From Ignavibacteria bacterium (GTDB taxonomy: Bacteria; Bacteroidota; Ignavibacteria; Kapaibacteriales; UBA4661): a DNA stretch of 64,000 bases. Positions 11,609-20,799 of this stretch are shown here, in pieces. How positions within the stretch are numbered: position 1 is the stretch's first letter; every line of letters begins with the position of its first letter. The DNA is taken from the NCBI GenBank assembly GCA_014654705.1, contig JACVZY010000003.1:1-64000 (forward strand). Reading direction: 5' to 3'. The position numbers were made by a program, and so were the translations under genes. Under the pieces are notes generated by a model. It saw only the letters and a list, made by a program, of their open reading frames with translations. It was not told the origin of the DNA and made no database searches.

Positions 11609-13132
11609 ATGCACCTTCCTTCTCTTCTCGGTCATTCTGCGCAACTGCTGAGGCTCATTGACCACTCGCAGCGCCCTGCCGATGTGCTTGCATCGGAGTA
11701 TTTTCGCGCAAAAAAATATATCGGCGCGAAGGAACGTCGTTTTATTTCGTCGGTGGTCTTTGCGGCACTGCGCGGACGCTCGGCATTCGATTTCTGTGCG
11801 ACCGAGGCTTTACGGGGCATTGCGCCACAAGTCCAAGCCGCACAAGAGCAATTTCACCACGAGCACAAAGGCAAAAAAGCAAGCGTCGAGCTGCTTTTCC
11901 ACGAGCTAGGCATCATCACGGCGTGTGCGCTCGTGGGAAATCAGGTTGGCGTGGGGAATATGGTCGAGAGTATTGAGCAGACGTTAGGCATTGCCTACCA
12001 AGACATCGAGGGGCGCATCATTGCTTTGGGTGAGGCATTTGCGCTTCGCTCCGGTATTGCTGCCGATGCGGGCATTCAGTTCGCAATGGCACTCCACGAG
12101 ATTTGGTCAGCGCTGGCGGAAGAAATTGAATTGATTTTTGCAGGTGAAGAATTTTCCGAAGCCGCACGAGAACTCCTCGCAACGCGCTTTGCCACTCCGC
12201 GCTGGATGCTGGAGGCGTGGCAGGAGGGTACAATCGAAGCGAACGATTGGTTTTCTTCCGTCGAACTCGCGGCTTCGCTTTTGGGCGCAGCGCCGATTCC
12301 TTTGCGCGTCAATACGCTTGCTGCCGACCGCGAAACCGTTCTCAAGATACTCCGCGAAGACGGCATTCATGCTCGCACGGGCAAACTGTCGCCCGACGCA
12401 ATTTTGATTGACCGACGTGTGAACCTGACGGGAACGAATCTGTACCGCGAAGGCACAGTAGAAATTCAGGATGAAGCAAGCCAACTTGCGGGGTTTGCAC
12501 TTGCGCCGGAAGCGGGATGGCGCACGCTGGATGCTTGCGCAGGAGCGGGCGGTAAGGCGCTTCACATCGGAGCATTGCAGAAAAACAAGGGCGAAATTAT
12601 TGCCTCCGATATTGAGTACCAACGTCTGAAAGAATTGCCTCTTCGCGCCAAACGAAGCGGGTTATCACTCATTTCCACCAAGCAACTCACGGACAGAAAG
12701 ACAACAGTAACGCTTCCGACGCAATTGGCACACCTCAAAGACGCTTGTGATGCCGTCGTGGTGGATGCTCCCTGCTCCGGCGTAGGCACGGCGCGGCGTA
12801 TGCCAATGTCAAAATGGCGGCTCACACCCGAAATACTTCTGAAGCACAGCCGCAAGCAGCTTGAAATCGTGAATCTCTACGCAAATGCTGTCAAACCCGG
12901 CGGAGTGCTGCTTTACCTGACGTGTTCGCTCATGCCACAAGAAAATGAGCACGTTGTACGAGAATTTCTCTCCGCAAACCCTGATTTTACACCGGAAGCA
13001 TTGGAACCTGTTTTTGCGCACCACGGTATCCGTATTCCGGGGTTAGCTCCCGATGCGCCATGGCTTACTCTCACGCCCGCACGACACGGCACGGATGGCT
13101 TTTTTATGGCGCGAATGCGAAAGGCTCTTTAA
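11609..13132 (+). CDS. RsmB-type RNA 5-methylcytosine methyltransferase
   Basis: A 507-residue S-adenosylmethionine-dependent RNA methyltransferase of the NOL1/NOP2/Sun family. A helical NusB-like region (residues 1-200, diverged) precedes the catalytic domain, with LDACAGAGGKALH binding SAM, VVVDAPCSGVGTARR as the motif IV cysteine and LLYLTCSLMPQENE as the motif VI catalytic cysteine. Both catalytic cysteines are present. The second family member at 13885-15786 is closer to classical RsmB, so this one may modify another rRNA site. The start is the ATG at 11609 after a pyrimidine-rich leader. Confidence 0.85.
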   Translation: MHLPSLLGHSAQLLRLIDHSQRPADVLASEYFRAKKYIGAKERRFISSVVFAALRGRSAFDFCATEALRGIAPQVQAAQEQFHHEHKGKKASVELLFHELGIITACALVGNQVGVGNMVESIEQTLGIAYQDIEGRIIALGEAFALRSGIAADAGIQFAMALHEIWSALAEEIELIFAGEEFSEAARELLATRFATPRWMLEAWQEGTIEANDWFSSVELAASLLGAAPIPLRVNTLAADRETVLKILREDGIHARTGKLSPDAILIDRRVNLTGTNLYREGTVEIQDEASQLAGFALAPEAGWRTLDACAGAGGKALHIGALQKNKGEIIASDIEYQRLKELPLRAKRSGLSLISTKQLTDRKTTVTLPTQLAHLKDACDAVVVDAPCSGVGTARRMPMSKWRLTPEILLKHSRKQLEIVNLYANAVKPGGVLLYLTCSLMPQENEHVVREFLSANPDFTPEALEPVFAHHGIRIPGLAPDAPWLTLTPARHGTDGFFMARMRKAL

Positions 13133-13227: not shown

Positions 13228-13767
13228 TCAAGCAGCCTCGTCTGCTTGTGGCTTTGCTGGGCGCTGCATCACTGTCCCACATTTTTTGCAGGTGCAATGC
13301 TCGACGTTGCCATAGAATCTATCAAAAATAGGTGGTAGCTGCTCCACAATGTTGCTCACAAAGTGATATTCTTCGTAAAGTTTGCTGCCACAATTCTCAC
13401 AGAACCACAGAAAACCGTCTAGCTCCTGCGTTGCTCGTTTGCGCTCCATCACAAGACCAACCGTGTTGACACGGCGCTGTGGCGAGTGCGGTGTGCGTGG
13501 CGGCAGCAAAAAAATATCCCCTTCTCGAATCGGCATATCTACTATTTTCTCGCCGTCGTGCAGTCGCAAGACCATATCGCCTTCGAGTTGGTAGAAAAAT
13601 TCCTCGCCTTCGTTGTAATGAAAATCCTTCCGTGCATTCGGACCTCCGACGACCATGACGATAAAATCATCGGTTTCATCATAGACAACAGCATTGCCGA
13701 CAGGCGGCTTGAGCAGATGACGGTGTTCGTCTATCCACGTGCGGAAATTGAAGGGTTTGGTCGGCAT
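13228..13767 (-). CDS. nbaC: 3-hydroxyanthranilate 3,4-dioxygenase
   Basis: A 179-residue non-haem iron cupin that opens the ring of 3-hydroxyanthranilate in the kynurenine route to quinolinate and NAD, or in tryptophan/2-nitrobenzoate breakdown. Iron ligands lie in DFHYNEGEEFFYQLEGD (His, Glu) and PPRTPHSPQR (His). The C-terminus has the two CxxC pairs (FCENCGSKL, CTCKKCGTVM) of the bacterial rubredoxin-like extra iron site. The ATG at 13767 (MPTKPFNFR) is preferred; the longer in-frame extension (to 13863) is repeat-like spacer sequence. It is flanked by two RNA methyltransferases and no other kynurenine gene is nearby. Confidence 0.93.
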   Translation of the reverse strand: MPTKPFNFRTWIDEHRHLLKPPVGNAVVYDETDDFIVMVVGGPNARKDFHYNEGEEFFYQLEGDMVLRLHDGEKIVDMPIREGDIFLLPPRTPHSPQRRVNTVGLVMERKRATQELDGFLWFCENCGSKLYEEYHFVSNIVEQLPPIFDRFYGNVEHCTCKKCGTVMQRPAKPQADEAA

Positions 13768-13884
13768 ATGGTTGGTAAGTTTTGAATGTTGAGTGCGGTT
13801 TGTAATGGTTCTGAGATTGGGGGTTGTGCGTGTATTCGGAAGATTTGTCTGCGCACTCATCATTCAAACGTAGCACTTCCAAAT

Positions 13885-15786
13885 CTACGATTTACGCACA
13901 AGCCGTGCAGCAAATGCGCCGTCTGTTTGGTGCACGTGCGGGAACATCTGCATAAAACCATCCTTGCAAAGTGTTTCGGGCAGATAGTTCTCGGCGCGGT
14001 CAAGTTCGTAGTTAGGAAATTCCTTCAGGAACCATGCTATTTGCGCGGTGTTTTCTTCCGGCTCAATCGTGCAGGTGCTATACACGAGCGCCCCACCGAC
14101 CTTGACCAGCTTTGCAGCATTGGTGAGCAATTCGCGTTGTGTGCGCAGAATCGGTGTAAAATCGGTTATCTCGAACTTCCACTTAATGTCAGGCTTTTTC
14201 GCCAGTGTTCCTAAGCCGGAACACGGCGCATCGAGCAGCACAATATCTGCTTTTTCCTTTGGTGCAAACGTCCGTGCGTCTTGCGCTTGAGCGGTGATAG
14301 ACGTGAGGCGCAGGCGTTCGGTATTTTCCTGAATCACCTTGAGTTTTCCGGCGTATTTATCCAGTGCAATAATCGTCGCTTCGTCGTTGGTGAGTTCTGC
14401 TGCAAAGGTAGATTTCCCGCCGGGTGCAGCACAGAGGTCATAAATTATTTGTCCACGATGCGGGCTTGCCAAACGCACCACCATTGCGGCACTGGGGTCT
14501 TGCACCGAAAACCATCCTTCTTGGAATGGCTTCCACTCACGCACGGACGAAAGCGAACCGACTAGGACAAGGCGCTCCGGCTCAATTGGGGAATCCCACC
14601 GCTTCACATCTTGTGCTTGGAGAAATGTAAAGAGTTCTTCGGGCACACAGCGCATCATGTTCATACGAAGCGTGATCTTAGGGCGTTCGTTGTTCATACG
14701 CAGGAGTTCTTCGGCATCTTTCTCGCCGAAACGCTCTATCCAACGCTTTACCATCCAGAATGGGTGCGAGTAAATTATTGAGAAATGCCGCGCAACGTCT
14801 TCGTGACGAAGTGGATAGCGGATATTGTTGATATTATTCAAAATGTTCCGCAAGATAGCATTGACAAGGTTTCCCGAACGGTGTCCCTTCAATCGTTTGA
14901 TGAGTTCGACCGACTCGCTCACCGCCGCAAAGGGCGGAATTCGCTGCAAAAACATAACTTGGTAGAGTGCGATACGCATGGCATTTTTCACGGGCACAAT
15001 ACACTTCACAAATTCCCCGTGATAAAAGCCCGTCAGCACCCAGTCCAGCTTTGCTTGCCAGCGCGTCACGCCATGCACAAGTTCTGTCAGCAAGGCACGA
15101 TCAACCGGCTTCAAATCACAGTGCGCTAATTCGTATTCCAAAAGTTTGTCTAAGTACGAATCACTTTGATCAAGACGAGAGAGAATTTTAATTGCCAAGC
15201 CGCGAGCACCGGTATAGAGTGGGTTGTAATCCTTAAAGAAAATGCTGTCGCTGCCTTTAGCGGGCTTATCCGGCACGTAGGGCGGGTCGTCGTAGCGGAG
15301 AGCCTGCGGAATGCCACGCCGTTGTAGTGCCTCCAACTGCTCCGGGCGCTCAATCCCTTCGTGTGTCGGTATGAACTCCGGCGTAATAAGTGCAGGACTT
15401 ATCGGCTCAAAGCGTGGTGTTCTCTCGTTTCTATCGTTTCGCTGTGGGCGATTGCCCTGCTCCGGTCTTTCTTGATGCGGTCTGTCTTGAGGATTTCTAT
15501 CCTGAGGCGGTCGCCGCCGGGTGTCATGGTCACGGCGGTCGTCTGGGCGCTTATTCTCATGCGGACGATTAAGGTTTTGCTGTGGAGTGCGCTCTGATTG
15601 AGGACGCTCCTGCTGAGGGCGTTCCTGCTGAGGGGTTCTCTGATGCGGGCGCTCCGCACGTTGCTCCGGTGGGGCTTGCGGCGATTTATTCGCAGGATAT
15701 TTATGACGATGTTCTTTTTCGTGCTTGGGCTTCGGATGCTGCTGATTATCCGGCGGAGTGCTTGGGGAGTGGTCTTGTGGAGCCAT
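13885..15786 (-). CDS. rsmB: 16S rRNA m5C967 methyltransferase RsmB with disordered N-terminal extension
   Basis: A 633-residue protein. Residues 1-130 are a low-complexity extension made of Pro, Arg, Gln, Glu, His and Asn (repeats such as RPQQERPQ and RPHQERPEQ), not found in usual RsmB of about 430 residues. Then come a NusB-like RNA-binding domain (residues 195-335) and the methyltransferase core with YDLCAAPGGKSTFAAEL, LLDAPCSGLGTLAKKPDIKW and VYSTCTIEPEEN, retaining both catalytic cysteines. It methylates C967 (E. coli numbering) of 16S rRNA. The extension could aid RNA binding. The start at 15786 gives MAPQDHSPSTP; a shorter version starting inside the low-complexity region cannot be excluded. 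Confidence 0.9.
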   Translation of the reverse strand: MAPQDHSPSTPPDNQQHPKPKHEKEHRHKYPANKSPQAPPEQRAERPHQRTPQQERPQQERPQSERTPQQNLNRPHENKRPDDRRDHDTRRRPPQDRNPQDRPHQERPEQGNRPQRNDRNERTPRFEPISPALITPEFIPTHEGIERPEQLEALQRRGIPQALRYDDPPYVPDKPAKGSDSIFFKDYNPLYTGARGLAIKILSRLDQSDSYLDKLLEYELAHCDLKPVDRALLTELVHGVTRWQAKLDWVLTGFYHGEFVKCIVPVKNAMRIALYQVMFLQRIPPFAAVSESVELIKRLKGHRSGNLVNAILRNILNNINNIRYPLRHEDVARHFSIIYSHPFWMVKRWIERFGEKDAEELLRMNNERPKITLRMNMMRCVPEELFTFLQAQDVKRWDSPIEPERLVLVGSLSSVREWKPFQEGWFSVQDPSAAMVVRLASPHRGQIIYDLCAAPGGKSTFAAELTNDEATIIALDKYAGKLKVIQENTERLRLTSITAQAQDARTFAPKEKADIVLLDAPCSGLGTLAKKPDIKWKFEITDFTPILRTQRELLTNAAKLVKVGGALVYSTCTIEPEENTAQIAWFLKEFPNYELDRAENYLPETLCKDGFMQMFPHVHQTDGAFAARLVRKS

Positions 15787-17529: not shown

Positions 17530-17570
17530 ATTTTACGCTTCTTTTTCGTCCGACCTCTTCCATCATTTCC

Positions 17571-17599
17571 TTGTCATCCTGCATTTTTTCGTATATTTG
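17571..17599 (+). promoter_or_regulatory. Bacteroidota-type promoter for the 1049-residue regulator
   Basis: TTG (17571-17573), an 18-bp spacer and TATATTTG (17592-17599) match the -33/-7 pattern, ending 50 bp before the ATG. A second similar core (CATATTTTG, 17612-17620) follows closely. Confidence 0.6.
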
Positions 17600-17649
17600 A
17601 CAGCATTTTCCCATATTTTGACACATCGGAAATTGATTCTGGCAACATA

Positions 17650-20600
17650 ATGACGCACACCGTATCATTCACAACAGCCCGCTATACCAATCTTCAAACG
17701 CTGATTCTTACCGACCACGCACATTTGCTGCGCTCATTCGACACCGAGCGCGACGAGCACGTGCTTATTCGTGTGTTTCGCACCAGTAATGAAGCCGAAC
17801 AATCGTATATTCTGACCGAAGCCGCCGCACTATCAAAGCTCTCTTCGCCGCATATTGCGATGCTTTACGATGTCAATATTACGGCAAACAACGAGCCGTA
17901 TATTGCCTTTGAGAACCTTCAGCACATACCGCTTGATACCGTGCCGCACTCGCAGTTCAGCAATACACAATTTATCGTGCAGATGGCAGCTTCGCTGCTA
18001 ACAGCTCTAGCGCCACTTCATGCGCAAATGCGGGCGCTTTTGTGCCTCACGCCATCGTCCATTCGTCTTGCTGATGAAGAAAGCCCTGTGGCGCGTATTG
18101 CGCTTGACGAGTGGTTCCCACTTGCCGGGGATAGCGTCGCTCGCGCTGTTTATGGTGCACATAACCCCTATGCCGCACCGGAACTGGCATTGCAACGCAC
18201 GGCGGATGCGCGCGCAGACTTATTTAGCATCGGTATTACGTTGTACGAAACTATTACCGGTCAGTCATTTAACGATGTGGCAATGGTGGAATCATCCGGG
18301 ATGCTGTCGCACTTAGTTCTCAAGTCCCTCCGCGAGAGTGCTCCTGCGCTACCGGATGCGCTTGTGCAATGGGTGTACGCGCTCTTGGAGCGCGACCGTT
18401 CGATGCGCTTCTTCTCCGCACGGGAGGCACTTGAATATCTTGCTACGCACGGGCTTCTGGCAAAGGACATCCTGAATGGCATGGAGCAAACGCCTGTAAG
18501 TCTTGTACCTGTCAGTGGTATTGGCTTGGAAACTGCTCTGGCTGCTGTGGTCAATATCCAATCGCCCTTTGTGGAATCGCCCGTGCTGGAAATATCAGGC
18601 GAACCGGGACTTGGCAAAACCATGCTTTTGCGCCTCCTCGTTCAATCACGTCTTGAATCCATAACGCTTTTGCGTCATAAGATTGTCTATTTTGCTGCAA
18701 TAGCAACGAATACTCTACCCAAACAAATCCGCGAAGCATTAGAGAAACAAGAGCCGACACTCTTTCTGGTGGATGATGCCGAGCAAATGCCCGAAGACGT
18801 GCGACTTGAAGTAAAAGACCTGTTAGCACTTGAAGATACATCGCTGGCAGGGATTCGTGTTGTTGCCACGCATCGCTCGCAGCTTGCGCGGTTGGCGGCA
18901 AAACCTGCAATGCTAACCTTATCAAACTTTGCACCCTCGCACGTACCGCTTTTTTGTGCAGAACTCCTTGGACGATGCGCTTTCACGCCTGAGTTTTATC
19001 GCCAACTCTATGCCCGTACCAAAGGTCATCCGCTTGTCCTCGCAATGACCGTGCGAGCAATGGTGCAAAGTGGTTCGGTAAAGCGGCGCAATCGTATTTG
19101 GACGAATGACGCACAGGAAGAAGATTATACGCCGCCTGTGGCTTTGTCGCTGGGAAGCGCAGCGCTGGATGCCATTCGTCTTTTGCCCGACGATGCCCGT
19201 ACCATGTTCGCGGCAGTTCTTGCGGCGTTACGGGTTTGCGAGCCGCTCCACTTGCCAGTATCGCTGCATCTTTTAGCAGAAATGCTGGACACCTCGACCC
19301 AGAGCGCTCTTCGGCGGCTTTTACCTCTCACGTTTGATGGCTTTGTGCAGCTTCATAATTCAGCAGTCGAATGTACGCACGAAATCTTCCGCGAGACCGC
19401 CACATCGGTTTTTGCTGAGGATGAGTTCAAGAATTTTCAGCGTATAGCACACGAGCTTGTCCAGAATCGGCATCCACACTTGTTTTTGCAAGAAGTGACT
19501 GCGGAGGAAAAGCCTCACGCGGAAAACCCTCAGGAGGAAAAGTCTCACGCAGAAAAATCTCAGCAAGAAAAAACTCAGCAACACGATAAAGAGACGCAGG
19601 CAAGGATTCAAGGCACTTCCCAGCCAAACAAGACGGCAGCATCTGTCTCATCTGTGGAAGCACATAGTGTGGATGCAAATATTGTGAGCGAACACAGTGC
19701 ACCATCAAGCGGAGCAACGGTTCAAAGCGAGCTGGCTCAAGGTGAGCTGGCTCAAAGCGAGCCAGTTCAAAACGAACCGAACCAAATCCTACCGGAAATT
19801 AGCCACAACATCCTTGTTCGCGGGGAGTCTCCGGCAGCAGAGTTTCTGCGAAAGAACGTCGAAATTGCGGTTTCCCACGATGTTCCGTGCTTGATTGAAA
19901 GCGTGTACGGCGGTTACCGCGAAGAATTAGCTACCTTGCTTCACACGAGCGGTAATCGCCGTGAACGCCCATTTCACGCGCTTTCCTGTGCTGATTTTGA
20001 GGGCACTGAGTTGGAGTCGTATTTGTTTGATACCGGCACAGATAAAGGTTTGATTGCTGAATCGGAAGGTGGAACAATCTTTTTAGATGAGATTTCCTCC
20101 GCTCCCATGACCGTACAACTACGTTTGGCACGGGTGGCACAAACACTACGCAAGCAAAGTAAAATTCCTTCGCCACGCCCTACCCTGCCCGATGTACGGC
20201 TTATCGTAGGCTATACCGTTACCGATGGCACACGAGCCGATGCGGCAATGCGACTGGGAACAATCAGCAGCGAACTGTTTTTTGCTGTCGGCGCGGTACG
20301 GATAATGCTCCCTGCTCTTGGCGACCGCCGCGAGGATATACCACTATTAGCACGGTATTATGCGGAAAATATTGCCGCAGAATATGGAATAAACCTTAAT
20401 ACCGAACTCATACCCGCAGCATTTTGGAAAAAACTCAGCGCAAAAACGTGGATTGCGGACATGACCGAACTTGAAGCAAATATGCGCTCTTTGGTGCTTC
20501 AGTTTGACCCGAAACGCATAGAAGTCTCTATTTTTGCCGTAGAAGAGCAGTTGTTCGGTGAAGCATCATCATCAAACGCAAAACCAATCGTTCACGCGAT

Positions 20601-20799
20601 GGGCGGCGTCTCTTCGCTCAAGCCGCCTCCCACAGCACCCGATGACGATTTGCTGCTGTCCATTGACGATGCTCAAAAAGAGCATATTCTTCGTGCTTTG
20701 GAGTTGACAGGCGGCAATAAAACGAAAGCTGCCGAAATGCTTAGAATCAAGCGTACAACACTTCTGGCACGGATGAAAAAATTCGGGCTGATGCCGTAA
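17650..20799 (+). CDS. Pseudokinase / P-loop ATPase / degenerate sigma54-activator / Fis-HTH fusion regulator
   Basis: A 1049-residue soluble regulator. Residues 5-275 have a Ser/Thr protein kinase fold: the YAAPE motif (174-178) and ADLFSIGITLYE are kept, but the ATP lysine is Arg41, the HRD aspartate position is Cys132 and DFG reads DEW (153-155), so catalysis is unlikely. Residues 290-600 form a P-loop ATPase with Walker A GEPGLGKT (about 317-324) and Walker B LFLVDDAE (about 371), resembling AAA/STAND modules. Residues 620-710 are a low-complexity linker. Residues 719-960 resemble a sigma54 activator (GGTIFLDEIS near 807, GDRREDIPLLARYYAE), yet the P-loop reads ESVYGGYREEL, the GAFTGA loop is absent and the Arg-finger YYRL is FFAV. 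A Fis-type HTH closes the protein (GGNKTKAAEMLRIKRTTL). It probably binds DNA with ATPase-dependent control but should not activate sigma54 in the classical way. Confidence 0.85.
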   Translation: MTHTVSFTTARYTNLQTLILTDHAHLLRSFDTERDEHVLIRVFRTSNEAEQSYILTEAAALSKLSSPHIAMLYDVNITANNEPYIAFENLQHIPLDTVPHSQFSNTQFIVQMAASLLTALAPLHAQMRALLCLTPSSIRLADEESPVARIALDEWFPLAGDSVARAVYGAHNPYAAPELALQRTADARADLFSIGITLYETITGQSFNDVAMVESSGMLSHLVLKSLRESAPALPDALVQWVYALLERDRSMRFFSAREALEYLATHGLLAKDILNGMEQTPVSLVPVSGIGLETALAAVVNIQSPFVESPVLEISGEPGLGKTMLLRLLVQSRLESITLLRHKIVYFAAIATNTLPKQIREALEKQEPTLFLVDDAEQMPEDVRLEVKDLLALEDTSLAGIRVVATHRSQLARLAAKPAMLTLSNFAPSHVPLFCAELLGRCAFTPEFYRQLYARTKGHPLVLAMTVRAMVQSGSVKRRNRIWTNDAQEEDYTPPVALSLGSAALDAIRLLPDDARTMFAAVLAALRVCEPLHLPVSLHLLAEMLDTSTQSALRRLLPLTFDGFVQLHNSAVECTHEIFRETATSVFAEDEFKNFQRIAHELVQNRHPHLFLQEVTAEEKPHAENPQEEKSHAEKSQQEKTQQHDKETQARIQGTSQPNKTAASVSSVEAHSVDANIVSEHSAPSSGATVQSELAQGELAQSEPVQNEPNQILPEISHNILVRGESPAAEFLRKNVEIAVSHDVPCLIESVYGGYREELATLLHTSGNRRERPFHALSCADFEGTELESYLFDTGTDKGLIAESEGGTIFLDEISSAPMTVQLRLARVAQTLRKQSKIPSPRPTLPDVRLIVGYTVTDGTRADAAMRLGTISSELFFAVGAVRIMLPALGDRREDIPLLARYYAENIAAEYGINLNTELIPAAFWKKLSAKTWIADMTELEANMRSLVLQFDPKRIEVSIFAVEEQLFGEASSSNAKPIVHAMGGVSSLKPPPTAPDDDLLLSIDDAQKEHILRALELTGGNKTKAAEMLRIKRTTLLARMKKFGLMP

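Follow-up and report, generated by a model that had tools for sequence, protein, structure and literature searches.

The open reading frame at positions 17650..20799 (+ strand) of the window, i.e., the 64,000-nucleotide stretch of a Kapaibacteriales (Ignavibacteria) metagenome-assembled genome analysed here, encodes a protein of 1049 amino acids in which two enzyme parts, a kinase and a sigma54-activator AAA+ module, are stripped of their active sites in all close relatives, and in which an ATP switch of the STAND type and a DNA-binding part are preserved. On this basis the protein probably is an ATP-gated assembly switch and not a kinase or a sigma54 activator. The more specific reading, i.e., a transcription regulator composed of a dead kinase, a dead sigma54 AAA+ module and a STAND switch, which would oligomerise upon ATP binding and act at non-sigma54 promoters, is the one that we favour, with somewhat better than even chances.

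Module architecture and distribution

The boundaries of the reading frame, which starts with ATG, are exact, and its assignment is based on the ORF call, family matches and orthologues. The modules follow each other in the order pseudokinase, STAND-type P-loop NTPase, low-complexity linker, degenerate sigma54 AAA+ module and Fis HTH. Structure prediction and HMM searches, both of which had been proposed with the initial annotation, were carried out, whereby Pfam located Pkinase to residues 31-260 (38 bits, above its cut-off), a P-loop NTPase to residues ~311-430, Sigma54_activat to residues 725-883 (60.7 bits, cut-off 20.2) and HTH_8 to residues 1005-1045 (46.5 bits, cut-off 22), and the middle NTPase, when searched alone, passed the AAA_22 cut-off (29.8 bits versus 27). 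AlphaFold models of the window protein, built from 12-sequence alignments, cover residues 1-550 (pLDDT 84.2, pTM 0.81) and 716-1049 (pLDDT 85.0, pTM 0.70). The former matched bacterial kinases (PknA, Z 23.3; PknS, Z 23.1) and the latter the sigma54 AAA+ proteins ZraR (Foldseek, 1ojl, E 3e-18), NtrX, NtrC1 and PspF, indicating that both folds persist despite the lost active sites.

Orthologues were identified in 13 of the 123 genomes of the order, namely in all ten genomes of family f1 (eight of the window's genus, including the window genome G000, as well as G008 and G009), in two genomes of family f8 and in one of family f10. Class- and phylum-wide searches of sampled genomes did not find a stripped member outside these families, and a scan of the genome contigs added three records only, all belonging to genomes already found. 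Identity across the three families is ~25% overall. The f8 and f10 proteins have a greater length (1272-1342 aa), and in L037 and L038 the region that separates STAND and sigma54 parts gave TPR matches. Motif counts given below refer to the 12 out of 13 orthologues with a full C-terminus.

The pseudokinase domain

The pseudokinase comprises residues ~10-270 (17677..18459, + strand), an assignment based on Pfam, alignment motifs and the fold match of the model. Its losses are those claimed initially: Arg takes the place of the ATP-binding VAIK lysine (VLIRVF, residues 38-43), Cys that of the HRD aspartate (LLCLTPSS, residues 130-137) and DEW stands where DFG is expected (LDEWFP, residues 152-157). 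In addition, LLCLTPSS has Thr at the catalytic-loop lysine, and a Gly loop is absent. Throughout the stripped clade the full set of VAIK Lys, HRD Asp and DFG Asp, by which an active Hanks-type kinase is recognised, is not found, as the HRD Asp is missing in 12 of 12 orthologues; the DFG Asp is unconserved and the VAIK position varies (Arg, Gln, Lys, others), Lys being retained only in L037 of f10. The C-lobe scaffold of the window protein is retained (APE, DARxDL..G, R250), and the invariant residues of the domain (P177, E178, D186, A187, R188, D190, G195 and R250) belong to this scaffold, none of them being catalytic. Since few parts of the protein are as conserved as the pseudokinase, as judged from the orthologue comparison, this domain is considered to be a working component, for which a role as a sensor may be assumed.

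Alternatively, the kinase domain could be active by a non-canonical mechanism, either WNK-like (in WNK the catalytic Lys is relocated) or by SelO-type transfer. The well modelled kinase fold, the VAIK Lys still present in f10 and the finding that, among the large modules, purifying selection in the closest orthologue pair is strongest on the pseudokinase would fit with this idea, but Gly loop, HRD Asp, catalytic-loop Lys and DFG Asp are all unconserved, and the ATP-binding positions vary (Arg, Gln, Lys, others) next to an invariant C-lobe scaffold, for which reason we regard it as quite improbable.

The STAND NTPase and the linker

The STAND-type P-loop NTPase, together with the winged-helix-like part after it, spans residues ~290-550 (18517..19299, + strand) and possesses the motifs GEPGLGKT, LFLVDDAE, THRSQL and TKGHPL (GxP). 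The middle P-loop, which had been described as apparently intact, is intact throughout the clade: Walker A (GEPGLGKT, residues 317-324; 18598..18621, + strand) is invariant as G-E-x-G-x-G-K in the 12 orthologues and so is the first Asp of Walker B (LFLVDDAE, residues 371-378; 18760..18783, + strand), and with the GxP motif included the invariant residues are G317, E318, G320, G322, K323, D375, G459 and P461. In the orthologue alignment this is the sole module with invariant catalytic motifs, which agrees with the initial view of the middle ATPase as the only active one to the extent that no other module qualifies; judged from its sequence, however, the term STAND NOD, which denotes a nucleotide-gated oligomerisation switch, describes the module better than active ATPase does. 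Further profile matches are to AAA_16 (in relatives, 37.8 bits in L038 and 42.4 bits in L103), nSTAND and NACHT. As the matches listed for the 1-550 model in a fold search against the PDB are all kinases, with no STAND fold found among them, the STAND assignment stands on motifs and Pfam; with the STAND part as query, a profile search of the PDB returned weak generic AAA+ matches only.

Bacterial STANDs typically carry a TPR sensor. Such repeats are present in f8 and f10 and absent from f1, including the window protein, in which residues 616-720 (19495..19809, + strand) form a low-complexity, fast-evolving linker at the place where the f8 and f10 relatives have TPR repeats and the f11 relatives TPR and GAF regions. 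The disappearance of the TPR and GAF sensor regions from f1, and a conservation that is higher in HTH and pseudokinase than in the STAND domain, would be in line with a DNA-binding repressor or an architectural Fis-type protein whose STAND core holds nucleotide as a structural cofactor, without an ATP switch. To this idea we assign a minor though real chance, as P-loop residues, Walker B Asp and GxP remained invariant over three families at ~25% identity, a pattern to be expected where turnover or exchange of nucleotide is important.

The degenerate sigma54 module and the Fis HTH

The sigma54-activator AAA+ module (residues 721-965; 19810..20544, + strand) is confirmed to lack Walker A, GAFTGA loop and arginine finger, all three of which the initial annotation had reported missing. 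In the window protein, VYGGYREEL (residues 752-760) occupies the expected Walker A site, LFDTGTDKGLI (residues 792-802) that of the GAFTGA loop, and SELFFAV (from residue 874) replaces DLYYRL. Among the orthologues neither a full Walker A (0/12) nor GAFTGA (0/12) is found, and the arginine-finger motif occurs in one of the 12. Partial states are represented by L037 (f10), with the VAIK Lys and a Walker A remnant (GTGKE), and by L038 (f8), with the arginine-finger motif. The elements described as kept, GGTIFLDE (residues 807-814), RREDIPLL (residues 893-900) and the Fis HTH, are all present in the window, but the Walker B FLDE is unconserved clade-wide (LLDD, YLMD, LLEA); the positions of FLDE, VAIK and DFG vary within the clade and therefore do not represent retained functions. 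The Fis-family HTH (residues 1001-1049; 20650..20796, + strand) is very strongly conserved among orthologues, with 84-96% identity to the window within the genus. Taken as a whole, the protein is neither a bEBP nor an active kinase by the defining motifs, and it carries the STAND motifs without the repeat sensor.

Sigma54 context of the genome

The Sigma54_DBD family was found in 60 of 61 related genomes, and RpoN of the window genome, whose presence was to be checked according to the initial annotation, is intact both in the RpoN box (ARRTVAKYR) and in region I, its Q-rich N-terminal part. Seven other sigma54 activators with GAFTGA-type loops are encoded in the same genome. A genome-wide loss of sigma54 function was rejected on these grounds, and the motif loss is thus specific to the protein described here. 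As a separate observation, the sigma54 DNA-binding region of RpoN from the window genome (G000:C51:311881-312435, L127) is interrupted by an insertion of ~27 residues as compared to RpoN of G018 and G008, and G009 as well as every genome of the genus shows a split match to the RpoN DBD.

Intact rpoN, the seven activators and the retained AAA+ fold would be compatible with a dominant or modulatory sigma54 partner, which forms mixed rings with an intact bEBP of the same cell or competes for its enhancers. This was considered unlikely, as the interface residues of arginine finger and Walker A have been lost and the recognition helix, KRTTLLARMKK, differs from those of the examined other activators of the window genome.

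Purifying selection and gene neighbourhood

Ratios of dN/dS were determined according to Nei-Gojobori. For the closest pair, L029/L031, they amount to 0.010 for the pseudokinase, 0.047 for the STAND part, 0.113 for the sigma54 module (121 codons, partial) and 0.755 for the linker, and for the window and L028, where synonymous sites are near saturation, to 0.043, 0.079, 0.080 and 0.352 in the same order, with 0.058 for the HTH; over the pairs other than L029/L031, the large folded modules gave 0.04-0.18. All folded modules, the dead ones included, are consequently under strong purifying selection, which is weak in the linkers only. A decaying relic or sequence errors, as might be suspected when several active sites are lost within one gene, are of negligible probability: independent assemblies of 13 genomes show the gene without internal stops, whereby a frame-shift or assembly error was rejected, and dN/dS is far below 1 in every folded module, whereby a relic was rejected. 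The losses, for which local sequence errors had to be considered from the outset, are shared by all orthologues.

No conserved neighbour genes were found in f1, where the gene stands alone, so that a target is not implied by its surroundings. In f8 and f10 lnt (apolipoprotein N-acyltransferase) follows next after the regulator on the same strand (L036:5563-7194, L037:6024-7751, L038:6646-8295); this adjacency is not kept in f1 and was not seen beside f11 genes, and a conserved operon partner was rejected. Further upstream, the window encodes two RsmB/F-type rRNA methyltransferases (11609-13132, + strand, and 13885-15786, - strand) with a 3-hydroxyanthranilate dioxygenase-like cupin gene (13228-13863, - strand) between them. 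An exact inverted-repeat scan of the upstream regions for an operator yielded nothing shared. Upstream of the gene (17560-17652), an element TATATTTG, which resembles the Bacteroidota -7 box, and a block TTTTGACACA are common to the window, L028, L031 and L029, L034 sharing TTTTGACACA; these could be the regulator's own promoter or operator.

Intact relatives and probable origin by loss

The sigma54 modules closest to the stripped clade belong to families f11, f26 and f27 of the same class, i.e., to kinase-STAND-TPR-GAF-sigma54-Fis proteins (L103-L113, L115-L117, L122), which, where full length, have the same module order and share the KRTT-xxx-MKK recognition helix. Full-length f11 proteins have 1695-1722 aa (one open frame is longer) and display intact HGDLKPxN, GESGTGKE and GAFTGA motifs. 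The f26 and f27 members are partly cut by contig ends, the f27 protein starting within the kinase region; their placement relies chiefly on the C-terminal modules. In contrast to the window protein, the intact relatives have TPR and GAF regions, an HGDLKPxN-type kinase in the nine members that reach this region, and Walker A, GAFTGA and arginine finger in 15 of 15 cases each; for other activators of the class the counts are 18/19, 18/19 and 19/19. The search for homologues with intact motifs, as called for initially, has therefore a divided outcome: the close relatives all lack HRD Asp and GAFTGA, whereas homologues elsewhere in the class are intact in the sigma54 module and, where readable, in the kinase.

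In the tree of the C-terminal module, in which long branches demand caution and no root was inferred, the stripped clade is monophyletic with support of 100/100, and stripped and intact kinase-STAND proteins together are split from the other activators (99/96). Loss rather than gain of the motifs is the parsimonious direction, and the same-architecture relatives with intact motifs suggest that this lineage was stripped stepwise by secondary loss. Sigma54 activators of ~714-763 aa with intact GAFTGA were also observed in other genomes of the genus (L118, L119 and L120, with GAF domains in L118 and L119); their C-terminal modules score next below the kinase-STAND group.

Proposed mechanism and comparison with known systems

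The suggested mechanism assumes a kinase-STAND-TPR-GAF-sigma54-activator protein as ancestor. The dead kinase domain would serve as a sensor or docking domain that binds a protein or ligand, and the middle STAND NTPase would alternate between a closed ADP and an open ATP form, the latter driving oligomerisation, as suggested by STAND biology. The dead sigma54 AAA+ module may act as a structural connector or packing surface, and the Fis HTH would bind one conserved DNA operator. With GAFTGA loop, Walker A and arginine finger gone, remodelling of the sigma54-RNA polymerase is impossible, and housekeeping-type promoters would be activated or repressed instead, a promoter class proposed by analogy with GAFTGA-less bEBPs. 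Counted against the STAND-switch reading are the TPR sensor missing in f1, the empty operator scan and the kinase-only fold matches of residues 1-550.

Each ingredient has a precedent. CP1 pseudokinases, a group in which ~40% of kinases are classed as pseudokinases, are fused to a predicted COG3899 ATPase, often with FhlA (PMC12599244). Their likeness is one of architecture, i.e., kinase and AAA_16/STAND here versus kinase and COG3899 ATPase, often with an FhlA-type region, there; the regulator additionally lacks the active site of its sigma54 part as well as the TPR/GAF region. GAFTGA-less bEBPs, i.e., Caulobacter and Rhodobacter NtrC and V. cholerae VpsR, act at sigma70 promoters (PMC10274813), and a deletion in the L1 loop removes GAFTGA in the regulator likewise. 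Caulobacter and R. capsulatus NtrC, however, need their own AAA+ ATP site, which is gone in the regulator, whose sole P-loop resides in a separate STAND domain, and unlike the GAFTGA-less bEBPs compared it has no receiver domain. In STAND proteins a closed, ADP-bound state gives way to an ATP-bound state that assembles into multimers, and the bacterial representatives are for the most part transcription activators and Ser/Thr kinases (PMC6468293). A STAND NTPase core and a DNA-binding domain are also united in one protein in MalT and further STAND transcription factors (PMC6468293); the regulator differs by its N-terminal pseudokinase, by a Fis HTH on a dead AAA+ module and, in f1, by the missing TPR sensor. 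The exact architecture was not found in a search of open-access papers. What had been proposed as a new use of NtrC parts is hence partly known from the GAFTGA-less sigma70 bEBPs and the CP1 fusions, whereas a STAND core preserved between two stripped modules is new.

It is conceivable, with chances somewhat short of even, that the protein represents a new regulator class, in which an NTP-driven STAND switch has assumed, inside one polypeptide, the energetic function of the sigma54 AAA+ motor, pseudokinase and pseudo-AAA+ module being strongly selected as non-catalytic parts, and a sigma54 activator turned into a STAND-controlled regulator of other promoters. One bacterial class offers a natural series of the same multi-domain regulator, from versions with every catalytic site intact through partial loss to versions in which a single site is left. 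On this series the role of pseudokinases and pseudo-AAA+ domains that are selected for in spite of being non-catalytic can be studied, as can the question whether a sigma54 motor is replaceable by a STAND switch.
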